Assembly (NCBI GenBank): GCA_910574865.1
Contig: CAJTDN010000007.1
Coordinates: 1-64,000 of the forward strand
Length of the DNA: 64,000 nt
From: Lachnospiraceae bacterium
Lineage (GTDB): Bacteria; Bacillota; Clostridia; Lachnospirales; Lachnospiraceae
Direction: 5' to 3'
Shown here: piece after piece, positions 1-12,205 of the stretch
How positions within the stretch are numbered: position 1 is the first letter of the stretch
Layout: every line of letters starts with the position of its first letter
Program-made: the position numbers and the translations under genes
The notes under the pieces: model-generated
The model's database searches: none
What the model was told of the DNA's origin: nothing
The model's input: only the letters and a program-made list of their open reading frames with translations

Positions 1-1
1 A

Positions 2-1602
2 ACTCAAACTTCGCACATAGATTTTAGCTATGCACCTTGAAAATTCAATATCTGGCAATGATTCAATTATCAAAGAACAGCCTTTTGGAACACTATGCTG
101 CTACTAATTGGGATTGTAGCAGGGATGGTAAGGTGCTGATGAAAGTGTCAGCCAGTTCATCTATCTTTTCATCAACAAGATCACTGTGTTCCTCTAAAAG
201 TTTCCGGAACATTTGAAGCAACATTTGAAATGCCTGCATCCATGTGATGTCAGACATTTCATCTGAAAAGTACAGAAACAGTTCTCCAAGTGAGCGGTTG
301 TCGTTTGCTTCCCTGTTTTCGATGGACAGCATCATATACCTGGTAAAAACAACTGCCGTATGGGCGGTCATTGCATCAAAAGAAAGGCAATGCCATTCTT
401 TACTGAGCCTGAGATAGCTCTTGCAGACTTTGAAGAATACTTCGATATCCCAGCGTTTTCCATAAAGGCGAATGATTTCATCTTCACATAAAGATGTATC
501 TGTTGTGATGAGGCAGAGGTATTCCTTGCGCTTATTCCGATTGCGGACATATACAACCCTGGCCGGAATCGCTTCCCCGTCCTTGATGACTTCCACATCC
601 ACCGATAAGAGGTATCTGGAACGTCCCCTGCGTTTTGTGTTCCTCTTGTAGATATCAATAAGGGAAAGTTCTTCTCCTTTGTATCGGAAGAACATCTTTG
701 GGGTTTTCTTAATCATTCCAATCACTTCATGGCCAAGATTTTTTACAGCATGAAGCGATTTGGGAGAAGAAAACCAGCTGTCAAAGAGGACATATTTTGC
801 AGGAATCCCCACTGTTTTAGCGGCTTTCAGAAGTTCCAACATAGCTTCCGTCCCTTTGGTCATAGAAAGCTTGCGGCGCTTATAACCGACGGTTCTTTTA
901 TCGAGACTGACGGCTTCATTCACACGGTTTTTCTTATTATCCGTGGATAAAAGGATACTGTTGACCGGAAGAAACGTACTTCCGTCAGTCCATCCCAGGG
1001 TTAGCATACGGAACCCGAACTTATAGGCATGTTTTGCATGGTCGTAAGTTTTTGCAAGGAGTTCCACCTTCTTGGAGCGGTTTCTTTCAAACATAGAATC
1101 ATCAATGCAGAGAACATTTTCCCTGTCTGCATGATTCAATGGGACAACGGCATCCTTGATAATTCTTGATGCAAGTATCGTTGTGAACCTGATCCAGTTG
1201 ATCTGTGTTGATTTCATAAAGCGGTATACCGTATCTTTAGCAAAAGCCGGCGTATTTCTTCCCGACAGCAGATTCATGTACATGCTTCTGTTTGAAAAGA
1301 TCAGGAGAAACAGATACTGAAAAATCTGTGTCACAGGTGTACCTTTTTTATGATAAGCGCCCGCCGTTTTCAGTGCAGACGTCACATGGAATCTGGCAAA
1401 AAATCTTTTGATAGTTTTAGAAATCTGGTTATCATTCTGGTTGTCTTGTGTTATACTGTTATTCATAGCATGAGCCTCCGTTGGTATGTTGTTTCTGGAC
1501 AATTCAATTATACCAAAAACAGAGTGTTTCATGCTATTTTATTGCCAGTTTTTATTGGATTTTCAAGGTGCATAGGCGCTTATTCAAGTGCGAAGTTTGA
1601 GT
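2..1602 (-). mobile_element. IS4-type insertion sequence, complete, with terminal inverted repeats
   Basis: The two ends are imperfect inverted repeats of about 50 bp. The left end from base 2 begins ACTCAAACTTCGCAC, and the reverse complement of the right end from base 1602 begins with the same 15 bases. Both then share TATGCACCTTGAAAAT after a variable stretch. The single gene between them is a DDE transposase on the minus strand. The left flank is outside the window, so a target-site duplication cannot be checked. The element borders the AT-rich peptide-biosynthesis island and may mark one edge of transferred DNA. Confidence 0.93.
93..1466 (-). CDS. IS4-family DDE transposase
   Basis: This enzyme cuts and joins the insertion sequence through a DDE catalytic triad. 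Visible motifs are an IDDSM-type first aspartate, the second aspartate in LFDSWFSSP, and the IS4 signature Y-x2-R-x3-E-x6-K in YGKRWDIEVFFKVCK. The frame is open from base 1532, but the better start is the ATG at 1466, which has GGAGG eight bases upstream and gives 457 residues. That is normal for the family, and the frame is unbroken, so the element may be active. No second frame or frameshift signal is seen. Confidence 0.93.
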   Translation of the reverse strand: MNNSITQDNQNDNQISKTIKRFFARFHVTSALKTAGAYHKKGTPVTQIFQYLFLLIFSNRSMYMNLLSGRNTPAFAKDTVYRFMKSTQINWIRFTTILASRIIKDAVVPLNHADRENVLCIDDSMFERNRSKKVELLAKTYDHAKHAYKFGFRMLTLGWTDGSTFLPVNSILLSTDNKKNRVNEAVSLDKRTVGYKRRKLSMTKGTEAMLELLKAAKTVGIPAKYVLFDSWFSSPKSLHAVKNLGHEVIGMIKKTPKMFFRYKGEELSLIDIYKRNTKRRGRSRYLLSVDVEVIKDGEAIPARVVYVRNRNKRKEYLCLITTDTSLCEDEIIRLYGKRWDIEVFFKVCKSYLRLSKEWHCLSFDAMTAHTAVVFTRYMMLSIENREANDNRSLGELFLYFSDEMSDITWMQAFQMLLQMFRKLLEEHSDLVDEKIDELADTFISTLPSLLQSQLVAA

Positions 1603-1744
1603 AAATAAAATTTCCGAATATGATGTACATAAGGGCGGATATGATGTGTTTGGGCGAATATTTTGCTTGGATAGAGCTTTATAATAGATGTGCTGTTTAA
1701 TCAAACATCGTTCAAAAATCAACCCAAAATCGGAATATACGGGG

Positions 1745-2092
1745 TCAATCGTCATCCGAATCCGTCACTGGTTTTGTATCTATCAAAGCTTTTGCGGTGG
1801 CGAGAAGGACTTGAAGTTGCCCTTCATCACATCGGGTTAACAAGTGATTGATTTGCAGGTATGTATCGTTTGCCAGATTTTTGTTTGGGTAAATGACCGT
1901 ATCTGCCGACAAGTTGAAGTACCGTATAACCTTTTCGAAAACTTCGTAGCTTGGATTGTTCCGAAAACGTTCCAAATCCTTTAAATAGGATAAGGAAATG
2001 TCAAGTGTTTCGGCCAGTTCGGCTTGTGTGAGTTTCTTGTCCATCCGGGCATTTCGTAATACAATGCCAAATTGTTTGGGACGGTAAATCAT
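1745..2092 (-). CDS. XRE-family DNA-binding regulator
   Basis: This 115-residue protein has a Cro/C1-type helix-turn-helix at about residues 8-62 (LRNARMDKKLTQAELAETLD, then ISLSYLKDLE). The rest is a short helical tail ending in an acidic TDSDDD. The start has AAGGAG nine bases upstream. It is transcribed away from the peptide cluster that begins 390 bp downstream on the other strand, so it is a natural candidate for the cluster's local regulator. That role is inferred from position only. It could equally be a leftover from a mobile element, since it lies next to the insertion sequence. Confidence 0.85.
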   Translation of the reverse strand: MIYRPKQFGIVLRNARMDKKLTQAELAETLDISLSYLKDLERFRNNPSYEVFEKVIRYFNLSADTVIYPNKNLANDTYLQINHLLTRCDEGQLQVLLATAKALIDTKPVTDSDDD

Positions 2093-2481
2093 GGTTGTAA
2101 TCTCCTTGGTATTAGGCTTTATGCTTTTTTCGTTGTGTACTTATGTATACAAATGTATATAGGGTATACCGGCGGTTGTGAGATAGACATACAGTTTCTT
2201 CTATATTGTGGTTGTAAAGTGGAAGCTTCGATTTAACAAAAGCATCTGCCAATACATTATATAGGAATTAGCAGAAAATTCCAAATTATATTACAACATA
2301 AGTAACGGCATGAACAACATATATGAAAAATGATGATATTTGGGTCTGCTGTTATCCACATGATTATGATGATATTAATTAAAGAATGCGATTTTTCAAT
2401 ATTTCTAAAAGTATGGTGTAACCATATTGTGTTTTGAGGGAAACGATTTAATATATAAATATTGGGAAAGGAGATTCTACA
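2093..2481. promoter_or_regulatory. Divergent control region of the XRE gene and the peptide cluster
   Basis: This 389-base AT-rich intergenic stretch has no credible ORF. Next to the XRE gene (2134-2170) it has closely spaced GTATAC/GTATAT repeats ending in the palindrome GGTATACC, which looks like an autoregulatory operator. Nearer the cluster is the palindrome TATGGT-GTA-ACCATA (2412-2426). A direct repeat ATGATGATATT occurs near 2333 and 2367. Promoter-like AT-rich sequence (TATATAAAT) precedes the AAAGGAG site of the radical SAM gene. The assignments are by eye. Confidence 0.5.
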
Positions 2482-3921
2482 ATGAAAAGGTCGAAAGAAA
2501 ATGAAATTCCCTTTGTAAAATTATTTAGAACGCCAAACGCGAACTATATTTATGATGTTCCGCAAAGTTGCATGTTGGATGTCCAAGAAGATACATACCG
2601 TTATGTTGAAAGCTTGCAAAAGGGAAAGGAAGAGCTGGTAATTCCAGAAGAGTTTTTGGAATTGCAATCACAAGGCTATCTGAAAAGCGAGAGTCCGGTC
2701 AAGGAAATCAAACATCCGTACACGGATGTCGTGGGATTTCTTTTAGAACGTAAAATGTCTTTGATGACACTTCAATTGACGCAACAATGCAATTTTCGAT
2801 GTAAATATTGCGTATATTCGGAGGGAGCAAATGTTCGGCAGCGTTCACATTCGGACGGGACGATGAGTTTTGAGACGGCAAAAAAGGCTGTGGATTTTTT
2901 GTGGGAACATTCGGTTGAAAGTGAAAGGGTTTCGATTGGCTTTTATGGTGGGGAACCATTGTTGCAATTTCCGCTGGTACAAAAGATTGCCGAGTATAGC
3001 AAGAAGAGGTTCCGGGGCAAAGAAATATTTTTTTCGATGACCACGAACGGTTCATTACTTAATGAAGAAATCATGGATTTTTTAGAAGAGAACAATGTGA
3101 GTTTGTTAATCAGCCTGGATGGTCCCCGGGAGATTAATGATAAAAATAGGGTGTTTCGCGATGGAAGAGGAACTTTTGACGCGGTTGCTAGGAATCTCGA
3201 ATTGATGAAGAAGGAACATCCTGATTATTGGAAGAAGATTCGAATTAGCATGGTTGTGGACACGAATAACGATTTAGATGAGGTGGCAAAGGTTGTTTCT
3301 GCGTTAGGAATCGAAGCGGAATATCTAAAGCCGTCCTTGATTGATTGGGAATATGATGACATACCGGAGATAGTGTCAGATGAATATTATTGCAAACAAG
3401 AATATCATCGTTTTTTGGCCTACCTTGCGCATTGGAAGCGATATCCGATGGAAAAAGTTTCGCCCGTTTTGCAGGCAGTAATCGAAACCGCTATTGATAA
3501 GGTAGAGCAAATTTCACAAAAATCGCCTTTGATGGCGTATGATGCACCATCGGGGCCGTGCAGTCCGGGACAACTGCGATTATTGGTTGACATAGACGGT
3601 AATCTTTATCCTTGTGAGAGAGTGAGTGAGACATCATCAATTGCCCATATAGGTTCGCTGGATCAAGGATTTGACATTGAAAAAGTCAGGCGTTTTTTGA
3701 ATGCGAGTTGTGTAACTCGTGACGCATGTATACATTGTTGGTGTTTTCGGTTCTGTAATCAATGTGGGAAACGCGCGGATGCAGGCGGAGAAGAACTGAG
3801 TGCACATGCAAAATTAAAATACTGTGATGCGACAAAGCATGCTGCTATAATGGAAATCAAGAATTATCTTCTTCTGAATGAGATACCGGCGTACAATAAA
3901 GAGTTTATAAATAAAGGCTAA
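2482..3921 (+). CDS. Radical SAM/SPASM peptide maturase (Cys-rich peptide, CLI_3235-like)
   Basis: This is a predicted cytoplasmic radical S-adenosylmethionine enzyme that modifies the ribosomal precursor peptide encoded at 5410. Residues 1-90 resemble the small peptide-binding N-terminal region of such maturases. The radical SAM cluster motif is C103-x3-C107-x2-C110, followed by the GGEP-type motif FYGGEPL near 154. The C-terminal SPASM region is rich in cysteine (C360, C378, C410, C416, C419, C421, C425, C428, C448), enough for two auxiliary iron-sulfur clusters. SPASM enzymes of this layout often make thioether (sactipeptide or ranthipeptide) links at cysteines, so that is the likely chemistry, by inference. 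The gene has AAAGGAG before the ATG and begins the operon. Its product most resembles the family I recall as 'Cys-rich peptide radical SAM maturase, CLI_3235 family'. Confidence 0.9.
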   Translation: MKRSKENEIPFVKLFRTPNANYIYDVPQSCMLDVQEDTYRYVESLQKGKEELVIPEEFLELQSQGYLKSESPVKEIKHPYTDVVGFLLERKMSLMTLQLTQQCNFRCKYCVYSEGANVRQRSHSDGTMSFETAKKAVDFLWEHSVESERVSIGFYGGEPLLQFPLVQKIAEYSKKRFRGKEIFFSMTTNGSLLNEEIMDFLEENNVSLLISLDGPREINDKNRVFRDGRGTFDAVARNLELMKKEHPDYWKKIRISMVVDTNNDLDEVAKVVSALGIEAEYLKPSLIDWEYDDIPEIVSDEYYCKQEYHRFLAYLAHWKRYPMEKVSPVLQAVIETAIDKVEQISQKSPLMAYDAPSGPCSPGQLRLLVDIDGNLYPCERVSETSSIAHIGSLDQGFDIEKVRRFLNASCVTRDACIHCWCFRFCNQCGKRADAGGEELSAHAKLKYCDATKHAAIMEIKNYLLLNEIPAYNKEFINKG

Positions 3922-3931
3922 GGAGTCAGAA

Positions 3932-4996
3932 ATGAAAAACGCGATTATTTATCCGTATAATGCCACACTGCTTCCGATGATAAGGCACTTGGAAGAATTT
4001 CAAAATGAATATCAGATAAGTCAGGTGGTATCCTTTCCGGGGAGTGGGCTGACTGGAAAAGATGCGGGTTATGTTTGTAATCAACCGCATGTGGGGGTGG
4101 AGGTAAAAGATTCTTTGGACATGCAGACATCCTGGTCAACGCTGTTGTTGGATGGAACTTATCTAAAGAAGGAAGGTGTTGGAAGCGAACTGATTGAAGA
4201 TGCCGTACATAATCACAAAGAGATTTTATGTTTTGAAAGTGACGAGTTAAATATCCCGGCTTGGAGGAAAGAATTATATCGTCGTTTTTCTCTATCAGTA
4301 GTTAAGGGAGAGGTAGGGGAAGATGAAATAGAGGAAGTGGGTGTCGTGCATGAGAATCCTATTCCGGTTATCTTGGTTGGCGGTTTGGTAGAGCAAGCGG
4401 ATAGTTTGGAATTGGTATGCTTATTAACGACAATACTACGTCAAAAAGGGTTAAAGGTAGAGGTGATAACGGACAAGCCGATGTATCGTCTTTTGGGATT
4501 TCATGACGTATCCACTTTGTTTAGCGGGAGGTATTCTTCGCTTGAAATAATAGAAAGAATAAATAAGTATACGTACGTGCTACAACAAAAATTTGCGCCG
4601 GATGTCATCGTGGTACATGCGTTTGACGGCATGCTTCGATATAGCAATATCGTTCCGAACGGATATGGCATAAAAACATATATGGCATGTCAGGCCATAC
4701 CGCCAGATTATTGTTTTTGTTGTGTTCCATTTGAGATGAGCAGTCCCAAAATGATAAAGACGTTAAGTGATGATTTTGCATATCGTTACGGGACGCAAAT
4801 AACAGGTGTCCATGTCAGCAATATGATTATAGATTTCATGCAGGCAATCCAGGACAGAAAACTGACATTTTCCTATGTGGACATGAAGTTTATGTGGGAT
4901 TATATGGTGGAAAATGCCGAAGAAAGCGATGTTCCGATTTTTAACGCGATTATGCAGGAAGAAAAATTGAGAAAAACCGTCGATAACATGTTTTGA
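3932..4996 (+). CDS. Peptide maturation system protein (TIGR04066-like), function unknown
   Basis: This 354-residue protein starts 10 bases after the maturase stop, behind AAGGAG. I recognise it as the conserved partner of CLI_3235-type maturases (recalled as the TIGR04066 family), which has no established biochemical role. There is no signal peptide or clear membrane segment. The sequence splits into an N-terminal part (about 1-135) opening IIYPYNATLLP and a second alpha/beta part (about 145-354) opening VILVGG. The second part contains VEVITDKP and PDVIVVHAFDG, which recall a Rossmann or P-loop-like sheet but lack a GKT/S motif. Cysteines are few (CFCC around 270). Possible roles are a scaffold, a peptide chaperone or a second modifying enzyme. 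None can be chosen from sequence. Confidence 0.8.
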   Translation: MKNAIIYPYNATLLPMIRHLEEFQNEYQISQVVSFPGSGLTGKDAGYVCNQPHVGVEVKDSLDMQTSWSTLLLDGTYLKKEGVGSELIEDAVHNHKEILCFESDELNIPAWRKELYRRFSLSVVKGEVGEDEIEEVGVVHENPIPVILVGGLVEQADSLELVCLLTTILRQKGLKVEVITDKPMYRLLGFHDVSTLFSGRYSSLEIIERINKYTYVLQQKFAPDVIVVHAFDGMLRYSNIVPNGYGIKTYMACQAIPPDYCFCCVPFEMSSPKMIKTLSDDFAYRYGTQITGVHVSNMIIDFMQAIQDRKLTFSYVDMKFMWDYMVENAEESDVPIFNAIMQEEKLRKTVDNMF

Positions 4997-5025
4997 TAGT
5001 TTGAATATACTAGGAGTTTGGTAAA

Positions 5026-5304
5026 ATGGAAAAAGAAAAGAAAGCTATCGTTTGCGAAAAAATCGAAAAGATATTGTATACATCTTTTAAGGTTGATAGT
5101 AATGGTTTTTGTACAGAGAATCGTGCCAAAAGTTTGTTTTTACCACCATTTAATCTTGACGGAATCATGTTAGTATATCTTTTTGCCGAAGTTGAAAAGG
5201 TATTTCATATTAAAATAGAACCTGAATATCTTGAAAATTATGCGTTTACAACGATTGCCGGCATTGCCGACATTGTTTGCCAAATATGTCAGGATGAGCT
5301 TTGA
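5026..5304 (+). CDS. Acyl-carrier-related protein of the peptide maturation system, lacking the carrier serine
   Basis: This 92-residue protein has the helix pattern of an acyl carrier protein, ending FTTIAGIADIVCQI, which matches the last carrier helix. At the position of the phosphopantetheine-bearing DSL motif it reads NLDGIMLVYL: the serine is glycine (G46). It therefore cannot be primed in the usual way. Families recalled as 'peptide maturation system acyl carrier-related protein' occur beside CLI_3235 maturases. The gene lies 29 bases after its neighbour, behind an AGGAG site. A non-catalytic docking or adaptor role is inferred. Confidence 0.8.
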   Translation: MEKEKKAIVCEKIEKILYTSFKVDSNGFCTENRAKSLFLPPFNLDGIMLVYLFAEVEKVFHIKIEPEYLENYAFTTIAGIADIVCQICQDEL

Positions 5305-5409
5305 TGGTGGTGATATCATGGTCTAGTTGAGAGCGTATGGGGTTCGACGTGTTATCCGGCAAACTTTTAAACTCTCTTCTAAGATATAAAAAGGAAGGAG
5401 GTGTGTGGC

Positions 5410-5595
5410 ATGAAATTAAAGAAAACTGTATCTCAGCATACGGTGGAAGCTTATGCGGTTTGCTCTTGTTCTTATGCATTAAGATGTGATTGTACGTGTA
5501 ATTGTACCAGTTTATCAGGGGCAGATAGAGCGGAAAATGAGGCACCGGATAGAGCATGGAGTGCTGCGGGAAATGTCGCCAATGGCACCGTGTAG
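5410..5595 (+). CDS. Cys-rich ribosomal precursor peptide (Clo7bot-like)
   Basis: This is the likely substrate of the cluster. It is a 61-residue peptide with a leader (MKLKKTVSQHTVEAYAV), a core with six cysteines in 15 residues (C18, C20, C26, C28, C30, C32, spaced C-x-C-x5-C-x-C-x-C-x-C), and a cysteine-free hydrophilic tail of about 29 residues. The ATG at 5410 is preferred over an in-frame GTG at 5401 because AAGGAGG lies eight bases before it. TVEAY just before the cysteines matches what I recall of clostridial 'Clo7bot' precursors. The C-x-C pattern and the SPASM maturase suggest thioether cross-links. No double-glycine leader end is seen. The long tail is unusual and might be removed or be the mature segment. 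Confidence 0.85.
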   Translation: MKLKKTVSQHTVEAYAVCSCSYALRCDCTCNCTSLSGADRAENEAPDRAWSAAGNVANGTV

Positions 5596-5632
5596 AGCGA
5601 AGCAGGGTAGTAGGTAGAGAATTTGTTTTCGT

Positions 5633-5671
5633 ACCAGGGAGAGGCTTAAGAATGGCTTCTCTCTGGTTTTT
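5633..5671 (+). terminator. Intrinsic terminator between precursor and exporter genes
   Basis: ACCAGGGAGAGGC (5633-5645) pairs with GCTTCTCTCTGGT (5655-5667), including G-T wobbles, across a nine-base loop, and is followed by a run of T. It lies within the operon, 38 bases after the precursor stop. Partial termination here would make precursor RNA more abundant than exporter and protease RNA, a common arrangement in peptide natural-product operons. Confidence 0.75.
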
Positions 5672-5694
5672 GGCTTAAAGATGGAGATATATTC

Positions 5695-7479
5695 ATGAAG
5701 TTTGAGAAAATAAAAGAATTTGGCGGGAACGTAGGCTATTGTTTGAGATTATCCTGGCAAACCTCTCCGTTGTATACGTTTTTGCGAATTGTTTCGACGG
5801 TTGTGCCGTCTATGCTGGCGGTCGTGCTTTCCTATATAGGGAAGGATGTTCTGGACGTGTTGACAAGTGGTGATTCGCAACTGCAACGGCAAAGGTTTGT
5901 TTTATTGCTGGGCATGATGTGGATTGTAAATATTTCATTAGTCATTATGCGCAATATAAGCCAATATGTGCAAGTGGTTCAGGCGGATATATTGAACGCG
6001 AAATTGTCGCAAAAGATTATGGAGAAAACGTTGGGGATGGATTTGGAATATTTCGACAATTCGGAGTATTATGACGCGCTGATTCTGGCGACCCAGAATG
6101 TCCATGCCATTATGGAAACGATTTGGCACATATTGCAAATGCTGGCGACGATTGTCACGGTTTTTATCGTGTTGATTATCTTGTGCTTACAAAACTGGTT
6201 GTATGGCGTGATAAGTCTGGTCGCGTCCGTCCCGGCGGCGATGGCGTCCATTTGGTACACGAAAGCACTCTATGACCTGGACGTGGAGCAGATTAATAAT
6301 GAACGAAAAAAAGCATATATCCAGGCGATTACGCCAGAAAAAAATTATGCGGTAAATTTGCGGCTATATGATGCCACTTCATTTTTGATGAAAAAGTATA
6401 AAGATTTATGGAAATTGACATTTACCAAAAGGAAAACGGCGCTTCGGACACGCGGCATTTTAACCGGCATGTTGAATTGTCTGCCGGAAATTTCCATGAT
6501 AATCATAGCGTTGGACATAGGCAAAAAAATTTTCCTAAATCGAATGACCATCGGCGCGTATTCGTTATATACCGGGCTGGTCGGGCAGTTATGCGGTAAT
6601 TTTTATTCATTGACGACTTCCCTTGTTTCCGTGTATGATAATCAATTAAAAATACAAAGCATATGGAAGCTTGACGGGTTTCATAACCGCATCCTGGATG
6701 AGGGAGAGGAAGAATTAAAGGATATCCAAAATATTGAATTTCGCGATGTCTGTTTTTCTTATCCGGGAACGGATGTTTTAGTGTTGAAAAATATATGTTT
6801 TTCGGTAGAAAAGGGGGAACATATCGCGCTTGTCGGGGTAAACGGTTCCGGGAAATCCACGATTATCAAATTGCTTTTACGTTTTTATGAGCCGGATTTT
6901 GGGCAAATCGCCATAAATGGAAGAAATATTTGTGAATACACCCTGCAATCATTAAGAAAAGCGTTCTCTGTATATTTTCAGGAAGAACCGAACTATTGTT
7001 TTTCTCTGCGTGAAAATATAACCATTTCAGATACGGAACAACCATCGGACGATTTGGACGAGCGGGTTTGTGAGTTGTTAAAGCGGTTCGCGCCAGATGT
7101 TTTGAAAAAAGCGCCTCGTGGTTTGGATACCCAGCTTATGCGTTCTTTATCGTCTGACGGAATGGAATTATCAGGGGGACAACATCAAAAGGTCGCGCTG
7201 GTAAGGAGTTTTTACAGACGGCATACCTGCCTAGTTTTGGACGAGCCGTCCGCAAGTCTTGACCCGGAAGCGGAATATCGGTTGTTCGCGGCCTTGAAAA
7301 AGGAGGCGATGACTACGACGATATTCACTTCCCACCGGCTTGCCAATACCCGTCTGGCTGACCGAATCATTATTATTGAACATGGGGAAATCGTTGAAAC
7401 GGGAACCCATCAGGATTTGTTGGGGAAAGATTCCAGATATAAACAATTGTTTGAATATCAAAATACCCGTGACTTTTAG
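5695..7479 (+). CDS. ABC transporter, fused permease and ATPase (peptide exporter)
   Basis: This 594-residue half-transporter most likely forms a homodimer in the cytoplasmic membrane and exports the finished peptide. An N-terminal six-helix membrane domain (about 20-310) precedes an ATPase with Walker A GVNGSGKST (381-389), signature LSGGQ (about 492), Walker B CLVLDEP and the switch histidine in FTSHR. There is no N-terminal C39 cysteine protease domain, so leader removal must be done by another protein, plausibly the subtilase encoded next. The start has GGAG eight bases upstream. The next gene begins three bases after the stop. Confidence 0.93.
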   Translation: MKFEKIKEFGGNVGYCLRLSWQTSPLYTFLRIVSTVVPSMLAVVLSYIGKDVLDVLTSGDSQLQRQRFVLLLGMMWIVNISLVIMRNISQYVQVVQADILNAKLSQKIMEKTLGMDLEYFDNSEYYDALILATQNVHAIMETIWHILQMLATIVTVFIVLIILCLQNWLYGVISLVASVPAAMASIWYTKALYDLDVEQINNERKKAYIQAITPEKNYAVNLRLYDATSFLMKKYKDLWKLTFTKRKTALRTRGILTGMLNCLPEISMIIIALDIGKKIFLNRMTIGAYSLYTGLVGQLCGNFYSLTTSLVSVYDNQLKIQSIWKLDGFHNRILDEGEEELKDIQNIEFRDVCFSYPGTDVLVLKNICFSVEKGEHIALVGVNGSGKSTIIKLLLRFYEPDFGQIAINGRNICEYTLQSLRKAFSVYFQEEPNYCFSLRENITISDTEQPSDDLDERVCELLKRFAPDVLKKAPRGLDTQLMRSLSSDGMELSGGQHQKVALVRSFYRRHTCLVLDEPSASLDPEAEYRLFAALKKEAMTTTIFTSHRLANTRLADRIIIIEHGEIVETGTHQDLLGKDSRYKQLFEYQNTRDF

Positions 7480-7482
7480 GGG

Positions 7483-8499
7483 ATGTCTAGTCAGGTCTGC
7501 TCATTTACCGCGCTGACCATGCGAAAGTGTGATGGTGGAAAGGCGGATGGGAACATGAAGGTGGCGTTAATAGACAGCGGGATTCGAAAAGATTTGTTGG
7601 CAAACGCATGTGTGATTGAGGACTTGGTTGTCGAAGAATCCGGGAATATCCGTCCGCGTACCAAAAAGGATGGTATTTTGACCGCACACGGGACGGTATG
7701 CGCGCAAATTATAGAAAGGTACACGGATTCTGTGGAATTTTGCAGTTTGCAGATTTTTCGGGACGTTAGCGAGTCGGCGACGTTTGACCAATTATCGGCC
7801 GCTTTAAGGTGGTGTTTCGTACAGAATATACCGATTGTCCACATGAGCATCGGGACCACGAGGGCGCAAGACGCGGTTCTTTTGCGGAGAATTGTCGCGA
7901 AAATGTTTGGGAACGGACAAATACTTGTCGCCGCGTATAGTAATTCATCTTATGTTTCCTATCCGGCACAGTTTGGCGGCGTTTTTGGCGTTTCGGCAGG
8001 TCATGGGTTGAGAGGGATTCAATATGAAACCGATGACGTTCGAAAAGATATGAATTTTGTTGCGTCGTCAAAGCATGTCGTGATTACGCCTACGGGTGAT
8101 AAACAAGAAACGCCTATGGCGAACAGTTTTGCGGCACCCACGGTAACGGCGGCCGTATGCCGGATTTTAAAAAGAGCGAAGTCACCAATGAACGCGTGCG
8201 AAGTTTATTATGCGCTGACTGGAAAAAAGGCTGAGCCGATGCGGCCGGACTTTATTGAGGACGCGATTATCGTCAATCCGTCAAATTGTGTGTTGCATCG
8301 GCCTTTTTTATTTTTTGAGGTTACAAAATATGTGAACTCGTTAAAGGAACTTTCAGATGACGAGAAAGAAAATCAAAGTATTGTGTACATACCAAAGAAA
8401 ACAGATGATGGAAACCCGGAAGATGATATCAGCCGCATAAAGAGGCTGTTGTACTGCGGGGATGGCGAGGGGACAAAAGCACGGGAAAGAAGATTGTAA
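7483..8499 (+). CDS. Subtilisin-like (S8) serine protease of the peptide cluster
   Basis: This protein of up to 338 residues carries a complete subtilase triad: Asp31 (ALIDSG), His69 (TAHGT) and Ser215 (ANSFAAPT), with Asn154 as oxyanion residue. It has no signal peptide and no prodomain, so it should act in the cytoplasm. Its place at the end of the operon, behind an exporter that lacks a peptidase, makes it the likely leader- or tail-cleaving enzyme. The start is uncertain. The ATG at 7483 has AGGGG immediately before it, and an in-frame ATG at 7555 begins MKVALIDSG. The last 90 residues are a less conserved tail. Confidence 0.85.
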   Translation: MSSQVCSFTALTMRKCDGGKADGNMKVALIDSGIRKDLLANACVIEDLVVEESGNIRPRTKKDGILTAHGTVCAQIIERYTDSVEFCSLQIFRDVSESATFDQLSAALRWCFVQNIPIVHMSIGTTRAQDAVLLRRIVAKMFGNGQILVAAYSNSSYVSYPAQFGGVFGVSAGHGLRGIQYETDDVRKDMNFVASSKHVVITPTGDKQETPMANSFAAPTVTAAVCRILKRAKSPMNACEVYYALTGKKAEPMRPDFIEDAIIVNPSNCVLHRPFLFFEVTKYVNSLKELSDDEKENQSIVYIPKKTDDGNPEDDISRIKRLLYCGDGEGTKARERRL

Positions 8500-8550
8500 A
8501 GCGCACTATAGGATTCCTGCGAAATATACAAAGAGCGATATCGTCCTGCT

Positions 8551-8586
8551 ATAGCGTCCGTGTTGCCTTCTGTACACCGACGCTAT
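8551..8586. repeat. Palindromic repeat A, copy 1
   Basis: ATAGCGTCCGTGT (8551-8563) pairs with ACACCGACGCTAT (8574-8586) with one mismatch and a ten-base loop. The same palindrome recurs at 12148 and 34758, with a half-copy at 16553. Here it follows the last gene of the peptide cluster but has no T-run, so it is a weak terminator at best. Confidence 0.8.
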
Positions 8587-8666
8587 GATTATATAATAAA
8601 CATGTTTTCATAAATGGAAAGATACCTTTGACAGGCAATTTTAAATGGCTGGATGGCATTACACTC

Positions 8667-8867
8667 ACGGCCAGATAGGCCGTCAATTGTAACCGTTTTG
8701 GGGTTACAGTTCAGTCCCCGGCCAATCACTACGCTGATTGGCCGGGAGGATGCACATAAATCTGGCCGATGCATCACCCGCTTTGCCATAGGCAAATTAA
8801 AATGCGGGCGATGCCTGTTACAATTTGGTCCCGCGCTGGCGTGGGGCTGAATTGTAACCGTTTTGGG
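8667..8867. repeat. Structured non-coding element between the island and glnS
   Basis: Within the gene-free stretch 8500-9060 lie three hairpins: ACGGCC/GGCCGT (8667-8683), a perfect 11-bp stem CCCGGCCAATC/GATTGGCCGGG (8717-8746), and a nested stem at 8771-8814. They are interleaved with a direct repeat AATTGTAACCGTTTTGGG at 8685 and 8850 and an inverted copy of its first nine bases at 8817. No ORF fits. It could be a degraded miniature mobile element or an intergenic repeat cassette. Repeated flanks around hairpins favour a mobile origin. Confidence 0.6.
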
Positions 8868-8898
8868 ACAGAAGCTTCAAAAAATCGAAAAGTATCAC

Positions 8899-8927
8899 TT
8901 GCCGACTTGTGGAATATATGGTAAACT
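8899..8927 (+). promoter_or_regulatory. Possible glnS promoter
   Basis: TTGCCG, a 17-base spacer and TAAACT lie 134 bases before the glnS start. The match is only fair. The rest of the leader has a small hairpin (GGGCAT/ATGCCC) but no T-box motif. Confidence 0.35.
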
Positions 8928-9060
8928 TGTGGGCATGACCGTGATGCCCGTCACACTACACTAATGCCTTGTTCCATTGACTTTCAGCAAAAGGGGACAA
9001 GACACTGGGCCGGCGTGGAGGGGCATAACGGATTTTTAACGGCGGTCGCAGGAGGAAGAG

Positions 9061-10728
<1,668 letters not shown>

Positions 10729-10732
10729 GATT

Positions 10733-12145
10733 ATGAACGAATTGACGATTCACCTCCGGCCGAAGTCGGAAATGCCCTTATATGAGCAGATTTACCAGTA
10801 TGTGAAGAAGGACATTCAGGACGGCCGGTTGAAAAGCGGGGAGCGGCTTCCTTCCACCAGGGCCTTGTGCAGGCATCTGGAAGTGAGCAGGAGCACCGTG
10901 GAGCTGGCCTACGAGCAGCTTTTGTCGGAAGGGTATATCGAGTCGCGGCCTTGCAGCGGCTATTTCGTGGCGGAAGTGGGGGGACTCTACCGTCTGGAGT
11001 CCCCGTCGCGGGGGAAAAAGGAGATTCCCCGTGACACGGGCGGGCGATTTCTTTATGACTTTACCCCGAACGGCGTGGATTTGGATTATTTTCCTTACGG
11101 CGTGTGGCGGAAGCTTTCGCGGGAGAGCCTGCTTGATGACAAGGCGGAGTTGTTTTCCCTGGGCGATTCCCAGGGGGAGCTTGGGCTTCGAAGGGCCATT
11201 TGCGATTACCTGCACCAGGCGCGGGGTGTCAATTGCGGACCCGAACAGATTGTCATCGGCGCGGGCAATGATTATCTCGTGATGCTTTTGAACACGGTGA
11301 TTGGCAACGCCCACAAGGTGGCGTTCGAGAATCCCACGTATAAGCGCGACTATCGGTTGTTCCGGACGCTTTCTTGCGACGTGTGCACGGTGGACATGGA
11401 CGCTTCCGGGATGAACGTGGAAAAACTGGCCGCCTCCGAAGCCGACATCGCTTTCGTGATGCCCTCCCACCAGTATCCGCTAGGAATCGTGATGCCGATC
11501 AAACGGCGTTTGGAATTGCTTTCCTGGGCGGGGGCGAAGGAAGGGCGTTATATCATAGAAGACGACTATGACAGTGAATTTCGTTATAAAGGCAAGCCGA
11601 TACCGGCCCTGCAGGGATATGACCGCGGGGGACGGGTGATTTATATCGGCACGTTTTCCAAGTCCATCGCGCCGGCCATCCGCATCAGTTACATGGTGCT
11701 TCCGCCGTCCTTGCTTGAAGCATACCGTCGGCGGGGCGCGTTCCTGCATTCGACCGTGTCGCGCATCAACCAGCAGGTCTTGCAGCGGTTCATGGAAGAG
11801 GGGTATTATGAAAGGCACTTGAACCGGATGCGGGCGTTGTACAAGGGCCGCCATGACGTGCTGCTTGCGGCATTAAAACAGGTGCGGGTGAAATTCCAGA
11901 TTACGGGCGAACACGCCGGCGTCCATTTGCTGCTTAGGTTTGACACGGGATGGACGGAAGACGAGCTGATTTTGCGGGCGGCCGACAAGGGGGTAAGGGT
12001 GTACGGGCTTTCGGACTACGTGGTGGGGCAGGACTCCGGCCATTTGAAGCATGGGGACACCCCTACGATAATCCTGGGGTATGCGAAAATGAAAGAAGAA
12101 GACATTATGCAGGCCGTGCGGCTTCTTGACAAGGCGTGGGGATGA
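10733..12145 (+). CDS. MocR/PdxR-type regulator (GntR helix-turn-helix plus aminotransferase domain)
   Basis: This 470-residue protein pairs an N-terminal GntR winged helix (about 10-78, with LPSTRALCRHLEVSRSTVELAYEQL) with a fold-type I aminotransferase domain. The PLP lysine is in GTFSKSIAPAIR. Such regulators control genes of vitamin B6, GABA or amino-acid metabolism; which ones cannot be told here. Only four bases separate it from glnS and its own ribosome site is weak, so translation is probably coupled. The palindrome that follows ends in CCTTTT and may stop transcription. Confidence 0.9.
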   Translation: MNELTIHLRPKSEMPLYEQIYQYVKKDIQDGRLKSGERLPSTRALCRHLEVSRSTVELAYEQLLSEGYIESRPCSGYFVAEVGGLYRLESPSRGKKEIPRDTGGRFLYDFTPNGVDLDYFPYGVWRKLSRESLLDDKAELFSLGDSQGELGLRRAICDYLHQARGVNCGPEQIVIGAGNDYLVMLLNTVIGNAHKVAFENPTYKRDYRLFRTLSCDVCTVDMDASGMNVEKLAASEADIAFVMPSHQYPLGIVMPIKRRLELLSWAGAKEGRYIIEDDYDSEFRYKGKPIPALQGYDRGGRVIYIGTFSKSIAPAIRISYMVLPPSLLEAYRRRGAFLHSTVSRINQQVLQRFMEEGYYERHLNRMRALYKGRHDVLLAALKQVRVKFQITGEHAGVHLLLRFDTGWTEDELILRAADKGVRVYGLSDYVVGQDSGHLKHGDTPTIILGYAKMKEEDIMQAVRLLDKAWG

Positions 12146-12147
12146 AA

Positions 12148-12182
12148 ATAGCGTCGGTGTGATAACTCATACATCGACGCTA
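12148..12182. repeat. Palindromic repeat A, copy 2 (possible terminator)
   Basis: TAGCGTCGGTGT pairs with ACATCGACGCTA across a ten-base loop, with one G-T wobble, and is followed by CCTTTT. The core matches the copy at 8551. It starts three bases after the MocR gene stop, so here it may serve as its terminator. Confidence 0.75.
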
Positions 12183-12205
12183 CCTTTTATGAATTGTGGC
12201 ATTTG

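Follow-up and report, generated by a model that had tools for sequence, protein, structure and literature searches.

The window studied here is a 64,000-nucleotide stretch of a Lachnospiraceae genome (assembly GCA_910574865.1, contig CAJTDN010000007.1, positions 1 to 64,000), and the subject of this text is a six-gene cluster at 2482-8499. By sequence comparison it is a divergent member of the CcpM/CLI_3235 kind of cluster for ribosomally synthesised and post-translationally modified peptides (RiPPs), and it probably encodes the production, trimming and export of a small peptide with cysteine bridges, of known kind. An earlier note on this DNA had described six genes running in one direction with short gaps, and six intact open reading frames (ORFs) are indeed present, all in the same orientation and separated by 3-105 bases. 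These genes, with the features flanking the precursor gene, are as follows (lengths in amino acids, aa):

2482..3921, + strand: radical SAM/SPASM maturase, CcpM family (TIGR04068); 479 aa; TIGR04068 469.6 bits
3932..4996, + strand: TIGR04066 partner, predicted DUF1611/DgcN fold, degenerate P-loop, putative pseudo-enzyme scaffold; 354 aa; TIGR04066 165.8 bits
5026..5304, + strand: predicted acyl carrier protein (ACP)-fold protein (TIGR04069), Gly replacing the phosphopantetheine serine; 92 aa; TIGR04069 45.1 bits
5391..5401, + strand: ribosome-binding site AAGGAAGGAGG for the precursor gene, seen in the sequence itself
5410..5595, + strand: precursor peptide; 61 aa, ATG at 5410 after AAGGAAGGAGG; TIGR04065 18.9 bits, E 0.0013; relatives lie beside related maturases
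5633..5667, + strand: possible attenuator 3' of the precursor gene: hairpin with T-rich tail, 14-pair stem and then TTTTGGCTTA
5695..7479, + strand: ATP-binding cassette (ABC) exporter, permease and ATPase, without C39 peptidase domain; 594 aa; Pfam ABC_membrane and ABC_tran
7483..8499, + strand: subtilisin-like protease resembling QhpE; 338 aa; NF049966 96.5 bits; Asp/His/Ser triad

Family membership of the cluster

The four NCBIfam models by which the earlier note had proposed to check the assignment, TIGR04068, TIGR04066, TIGR04069 and TIGR04065, were the best models of the maturase, its partner, the ACP-fold protein and the precursor, each scoring below its curated cut-off (500, 200, 70 and 26 bits, respectively). 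TIGR04066 was the sole strong model for the partner and TIGR04065 the sole model to match the precursor. Among close relatives, the maturase of locus L072 passes the TIGR04068 cut-off at 510.9 bits, while those of L073 and L076 fall below it at 494.5 and 429.4 bits; with L072 above the threshold, the window cluster is a divergent member rather than a look-alike. The earlier note had joined CLI_3235 with Clo7bot systems, and this grouping is not supported: the Clo7bot maturase has a separate model, TIGR04334 (cut-off 600), which does not appear among the 25 highest-scoring of the 81 models matched by the window maturase, where the lowest score is 64.7 bits. RumMC and PapB models gave similar scores with this maturase, 202.8 and 207.5 bits.

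The identities proposed for the SPASM maturase, the six-Cys precursor, the exporter and the subtilase are supported. In the maturase, the CxxxCxxC motif (C103, C107 and C110) and seven Cys of the SPASM region are invariant across 19 aligned relatives. The best PDB match of its family profile is 5wgg (E 1.4e-54), with an alignment that begins at profile position 5. We take 5wgg to be CteB and the N-terminus of CteB to be its leader-binding RRE, the end to which the N-terminal stretch of the maturase aligns. The precursor consists of a leader (MKLKK..HTVEAYA), six Cys at positions 18, 20, 26, 28, 30 and 32, and a tail without Cys; its leader motif and CxC are like those of its relatives. The exporter is MsbA/ABCB-like, its match to TIGR01193 begins at model position 160, and no peptidase model was found in it by the Pfam scan or the NCBIfam match. 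The protease is nearest to QhpE, at a score below the NF049966 cut-off of 165 bits, so it is not filed as a member of that family; alignment to subtilisin places the Asp/His/Ser triad, with all three residues present, and no signal peptide is visible by eye.

In a contig scan with the maturase alignment, the 80 top matches, out of a longer list, gave 78 loci with 83 maturase units, and the gene neighbourhoods agreed with the earlier assignment. TIGR04066 is adjacent to or fused with the maturase in 78 of these units, and an ACP-fold gene lies near 69, a protease near 53 and an exporter near 55. Among the 49 units flanked by over 6 kb on either side, the corresponding counts are 48, 44, 33 and 35, with all four partners in 28. 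The five units without TIGR04066 are L071, which is cut by a contig end, and the more distant maturases of L140, L142, L146 and L147. Precursor-like ORFs, defined by our own profile at E ≤0.1 and at least 3 Cys, occur near 67 of the 83 units, so that homologues of the precursor are found beside such maturases; this profile was seeded with the window precursor, which leaves TIGR04065 as the independent test. CxC is present in 70 of the 71 distinct candidates and a strict leader motif, [VIL][EQ][AS][YFM], in 36, and the cores differ greatly across the family. At E ≤0.001, TIGR04066 was found in 25 of 299 genomes of the family, 22 of 391 of the class and, for the genus, one of 12 (seven near complete), each count including the window's own genome.

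The TIGR04066 partner and the ACP-fold protein

Relatives link the TIGR04066 domain to its neighbours in single chains. It is fused to the maturase in L054 and L139 (726 aa, one genome), to the ACP-fold protein in L078 (465 aa, one genome) and to a QhpE-like protease at 15 loci recognised with our own profiles, three of them also by NCBIfam. An AlphaFold model of the window protein, built from 58 aligned sequences, reached a pLDDT of 95.2. The top seven Foldseek matches of this model in the PDB all belonged to the DUF1611 family (2obn, 7xrj and 2g0t), with E values of 1.2e-10 to 1.1e-7 and template modelling scores over the query length of 0.55-0.63. The PDB title of 2obn names DUF1611 and that of 7xrj the N-acetyltransferase DgcN; 7xrj and 2g0t are presumably both DUF1611 members. 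In a search with the sequence profile, too, 2g0t comes out on top (E 0.0011), and the P-loop columns align. Going by the structural model, the TIGR04066 protein is thus predicted to have the DUF1611/DgcN (PF07755) fold. Pfam DUF1611 gave no match to the window protein at E 0.1 and matched 7 of the 58 proteins of alignment A3 at that threshold; over its cut-off, it matched all ten protease fusions with an intact P-loop and none of the three lachnocin-type systems scanned (L060, L061 and L168). In the accessible parts of the papers that name the models, we found none linking TIGR04066 to DUF1611 or remarking on the absent carrier serine described below.

The P-loop position of the window protein reads GLVEQADSLE, with Ser in place of Lys. 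Among the 15 protease fusions, ten have a GTSSxQGKFT-like P-loop and five have GLNK or SSSK. Lysine is present in 54 and Gly-Lys in 4 of the 78 TIGR04066 proteins beyond these fusions (counts exclude proteins of 200 aa or fewer, and the identical proteins of L110 and L111 are both included). The P-loop motif decays in the same order as the Pfam DUF1611 match, from the fusions through the further TIGR04066 proteins to the window. On the maturase tree, a quick tree, the window falls within a group of 21 (SH-aLRT 95), of which all 20 scored members, window included, lack the lysine; five more lysine-less TIGR04066 proteins sit elsewhere on the tree. Loss of the lysine in all 20 scored members makes it a property of the clade and no oddity of the window genome. 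Seen as a cluster, the locus adds one more example to a kind already described; seen as a variant, it represents a clade whose partner protein lacks the lysine.

The ACP-fold family profile hits ACPs of solved structure, at best with E 3.8e-8, and its alignment to them includes the attachment-serine column. Among the 71 family members with a hidden Markov model score of at least 19, that column holds P in 29, A in 24, S in 8, G in 5, D in 2, and E, T and V in one each, the window protein having Gly; one of the eight sequences with Ser (L079 8329) is perhaps an ordinary ACP. The TIGR04069 protein is accordingly best described, in the window and in most relatives, as a predicted ACP fold without the phosphopantetheine serine. 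The earlier note had called it carrier-like, of which the fold stands and the carrying serine does not.

The state of the two motifs differs between types of system. An ACP-like protein with [DE]S[LIM] accompanies all ten protease fusions with an intact P-loop (L166 and L167 were added once the other eight had shown this pattern), while in CcpM systems both motifs are mostly degenerate. No ACP-like protein was found with two small profiles in the fetched stretches around the five other protease fusions. Within the CcpM systems the serine is present in 4 of 50 with the lysine and in 3 of 20 without it, and the four Gly-Lys cases all lack the serine; the two states are uncorrelated there, which limits the pairing claim to the comparison between system types, and a Fisher value calculated for the pairing is accordingly not counted as evidence.

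The ten intact systems (L056-L059, L062, L063, L066, L069, L166 and L167) share with the window a maturase, an ACP-fold protein, a QhpE-like protease and a TIGR04066 domain; they differ in that protease and TIGR04066 form one chain and in that P-loop and carrier serine are intact. Their maturases are nearest to TIGR04463 or TIGR04334, below cut-off, in eight of the nine tested (all but L063), and that of L069 is nearest to PapB. At 12076-12644 of L069 we observed four tandem short ORFs (43-47 aa) that start with MKKP and end in a YYG.CE.CN.CN-like motif, which likely serve as multiple precursors for a single PapB-like maturase in a system whose protease and TIGR04066 are fused. Lachnocin-type systems also have a related maturase and a fusion of protease and TIGR04066, but their P-loop is degenerate and no ACP-like protein was found in them; L060, L061 and L168 match NF038170, and L065 and L169 are placed here by likeness of maturase and P-loop only. 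L060 contains two near-copies (6371-6508 and 6683-6820) of a 45-aa ORF with ...TV(R/K)TLDCHCGCEG..., probably lachnocin-type precursors. A literature search on Clo7bot and lachnocin returned no paper.

Proposed pathway and alternative explanations

We propose that the maturase binds the leader (MK-L-KK...VEAY region) through its own N-terminal domain and would link some of the six Cys through thioethers, as expected from its family and from its nearest solved relative, 5wgg. The TIGR04066 and ACP-fold proteins would act without catalysis, as a pair of docking proteins that keeps maturase, precursor and protease in one assembly. In relatives the TIGR04066 domain is fused to each other intracellular protein except the precursor, and the catalytic residues are lost; the combination of fusions with the missing P-loop lysine and carrier serine makes the case for a scaffold and argues against catalysis in the window cluster. 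Such a scaffold would descend from a nucleoside triphosphate- or coenzyme A (CoA)-binding enzyme and its carrier. For the last steps there is a precedent in qhpC-F of quinohemoprotein amine dehydrogenase, which, like the window, combines a SPASM maturase, a cytosolic subtilisin-like leader peptidase and an ABC exporter, and in which QhpE acts in the cytoplasm, ahead of export, to cleave the leader from cross-linked QhpC (PMC7876137; this and the papers cited below are quoted from excerpts). There the substrate is an enzyme subunit, unlike in the window, and the excerpt names no TIGR04066 or ACP-like partner. By analogy, leader removal by the QhpE-like subtilase of the window would take place in the cytoplasm, and export of the product would fall to the peptidase-less ABC protein, like QhpF. 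The earlier proposal of a thioether-bridged, cut and exported peptide is thus retained as far as cross-linking, cleavage and export are concerned, its thioether chemistry being suggested by family resemblance; such chemistry is treated in PMC8326336. Taken as a whole, a CcpM/CLI_3235 RiPP cluster with a non-catalytic pair, cytoplasmic leader removal and peptidase-less export is the explanation that we consider rather probable.

The earlier note had stated that such systems have no characterised product, which no longer holds: SacP23 of Paenibacillus polymyxa #23 comes from a TIGR04068/TIGR04066/TIGR04069 cluster (PMC10731318). Like the window, this cluster has a CLI_3235 precursor (also 61 aa), an ABC transporter and a subtilase; unlike it, it has extra genes for an extracytoplasmic function (ECF) sigma factor and for a protein of no known role. 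Expressed in Bacillus subtilis, SacP23 inhibits five of eight Gram-positive strains and none of three Gram-negative ones; recovered from culture supernatant, it is heat-stable, has a mass of 3404 Da and a blocked N-terminus that resists Edman degradation, and its cross-links are unsolved (PMC10731318). Other published examples are a similar five-gene cluster in Roseburia intestinalis L1-82, in which the precursor was not recognised (PMC4573289), and another CLI_3235 precursor (PMC7343975). A near relative of SacP23, L106 (Paenibacillus sp. BJ-4), has a precursor with three differences by eye from the printed SacP23, final Tyr aside. Its TIGR04066 protein (425 bits) keeps the lysine (GLNERTHKLN) that the window has lost, and its precursor sits before the maturase, whereas that of the window follows the ACP-fold gene. 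Four fragments of the SacP23 precursor starting at residue 12 or later fit 3404 Da within 1.2 Da with zero to two links, so that the mass is uninformative on cut site or links; a mass search with the L106 precursor gave two fragments within 1.5 Da, and none of these candidates was retained.

The blocked N-terminus of SacP23 could reflect a TIGR04066/ACP pair that is still catalytic, for example by acylating the protease-freed N-terminus of the peptide with an acyl group from CoA or a carrier. The closest folds do include the N-acetyltransferase DgcN, and ten sister systems retain both P-loop and carrier serine; the DUF1611/DgcN literature was uninformative, and the acetyltransferase role is therefore taken from the title of 7xrj. 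An N-terminal cross-link or cyclisation would equally block Edman degradation, however, and the window lacks both the lysine and the serine, so that we consider catalysis by its pair distinctly unlikely. A broader and tentative idea, which we judge rather unlikely as well, is that the pair descends from a DgcN-like acyltransferase and its carrier, that the intact systems N-acylate their peptide, and that the pair decayed by stages in CcpM systems to a scaffold in the window clade. If true, acyl from a phosphopantetheine carrier would be placed on the N-terminus exposed by the fused protease, giving N-acylated cross-linked peptides.

Several points weigh against the scaffold-based pathway. All four window proteins match the CcpM-set models below cut-off, and no solved cross-link of a CcpM enzyme was found in the excerpts of the literature naming these models. 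Because 54 of the 78 TIGR04066 proteins that are not protease fusions retain the lysine, the pseudo-enzyme claim is firm for the window clade and not for the entire family. A purely non-catalytic pair leaves the blocked N-terminus of SacP23 (PMC10731318) unexplained, and its 3404 Da are, by calculation, compatible with several fragments and zero to two links. The bacteriocin role, finally, is drawn from one published relative of another clade.

By analogy with SacP23, the product is nevertheless most likely a bacteriocin. A signal or surface-acting peptide without antibacterial function is a minority possibility to be kept in mind: a title cited in PMC8326336 places SCIFF-derived ranthipeptides in quorum sensing of Clostridia, and the cores are very variable within the family; on the other side, SacP23, the only tested relative known to us, inhibits some Gram-positive bacteria, and the patchy distribution (one of 12 genus genomes) fits a bacteriocin better.

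In the Lachnospiraceae clade closest to the window (L070 and L072-L077), maturases share 44-49% identity with that of the window and the TIGR04066 proteins are likewise lysine-less. The precursor directly follows the ACP-fold gene in L070, L072, L073 and L077, as in the window, and in L076 it precedes the maturase. Four of the five relatives examined (L070, L073, L075 and L077) add a permease of 1014-1087 aa and an ABC ATPase of 222-234 aa, which are absent from the window and from L072. The large membrane proteins, FtsX-like by eye, lie at 13171-16320 in L070, 11368-14631 in L073, 13520-16714 and 17113-20289 in L075, and 3060-6104 in L077; together with the ATPase they are a possible immunity or second export module. 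The authors of the SacP23 report place the TIGR04066 protein itself in immunity (PMC10731318), and no other immunity gene was seen in the window cluster. Yet its predicted fold is the soluble one of DUF1611, its gene comes after the maturase (or is fused with it) in 78 of the 83 units, relatives have it joined to maturase, carrier or protease, and the separate permease and ATPase would suit immunity better; we regard this role as most improbable. The missing permease and ATPase, along with the IS4 element on one side, could also mean that the cluster is decaying and yields no product. This too is very unlikely, as the six frames are open, the conserved maturase Cys and the protease triad are all kept, and L072 likewise lacks the permease.

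The comparison of sister systems turns two roles without explanation into a testable proposal. For two proteins that accompany many predicted Cys-rich peptide clusters, there is now a fold and a likely ancestry, and their role can be put to the test; the state of P-loop and carrier serine would predict which clusters have an extra catalytic step and which use the pair as a scaffold. The natural fusions suggest binding partners, useful for reconstituting such peptides.

Flanking features

On its left, the cluster is flanked by a feature outside the pathway:

2..1602, - strand: IS4-family insertion element; ORF 93-1532, NF049925 608 bits; 15-nt perfect inverted ends 2-16/1588-1602

Because the contig starts within this element, the left neighbourhood of the cluster is lost. 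The cluster has a G+C content of 0.37-0.48, against mostly 0.50-0.60 farther right, and was likely acquired by transfer. The insertion boundary could not be drawn: an alignment of the first 9060 bases to the roughly 9 kb preceding glnS in six relatives from the genus yielded only one 49-base match (86%). In the region before glnS (8500-9060) the window differs from these six genus members, which partly differ among themselves; perhaps this region is an insertion hotspot.

A hairpin with a T-rich tail after a precursor gene is a common device keeping precursor transcripts in excess. The one at 5633..5667 has a folding energy of -28.6 kcal/mol (z -2.85), which 2 of 200 shuffled sequences equalled, and terminator-like sites in the region number 12 against 5.6 expected. 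It is possibly an attenuator that lowers transcription of the exporter and protease genes. Divergent from the cluster, at 1745-2092 on the - strand, lies a gene for a small helix-turn-helix protein (HTH_3), from its sequence a possible regulator.

An Rfam scan of positions 1-12200 gave no match, including at a dispersed repeat at 8702-8858 (and 8633-8695). With a 371-base query, this repeat has 49 matches in its own genome, self included, of which 22 are 150-175 bases long (80-93% identity) and 11 correspond to a 60-base segment. The 8702-8858 copy holds the inverted arms 8817-8836/8839-8858.

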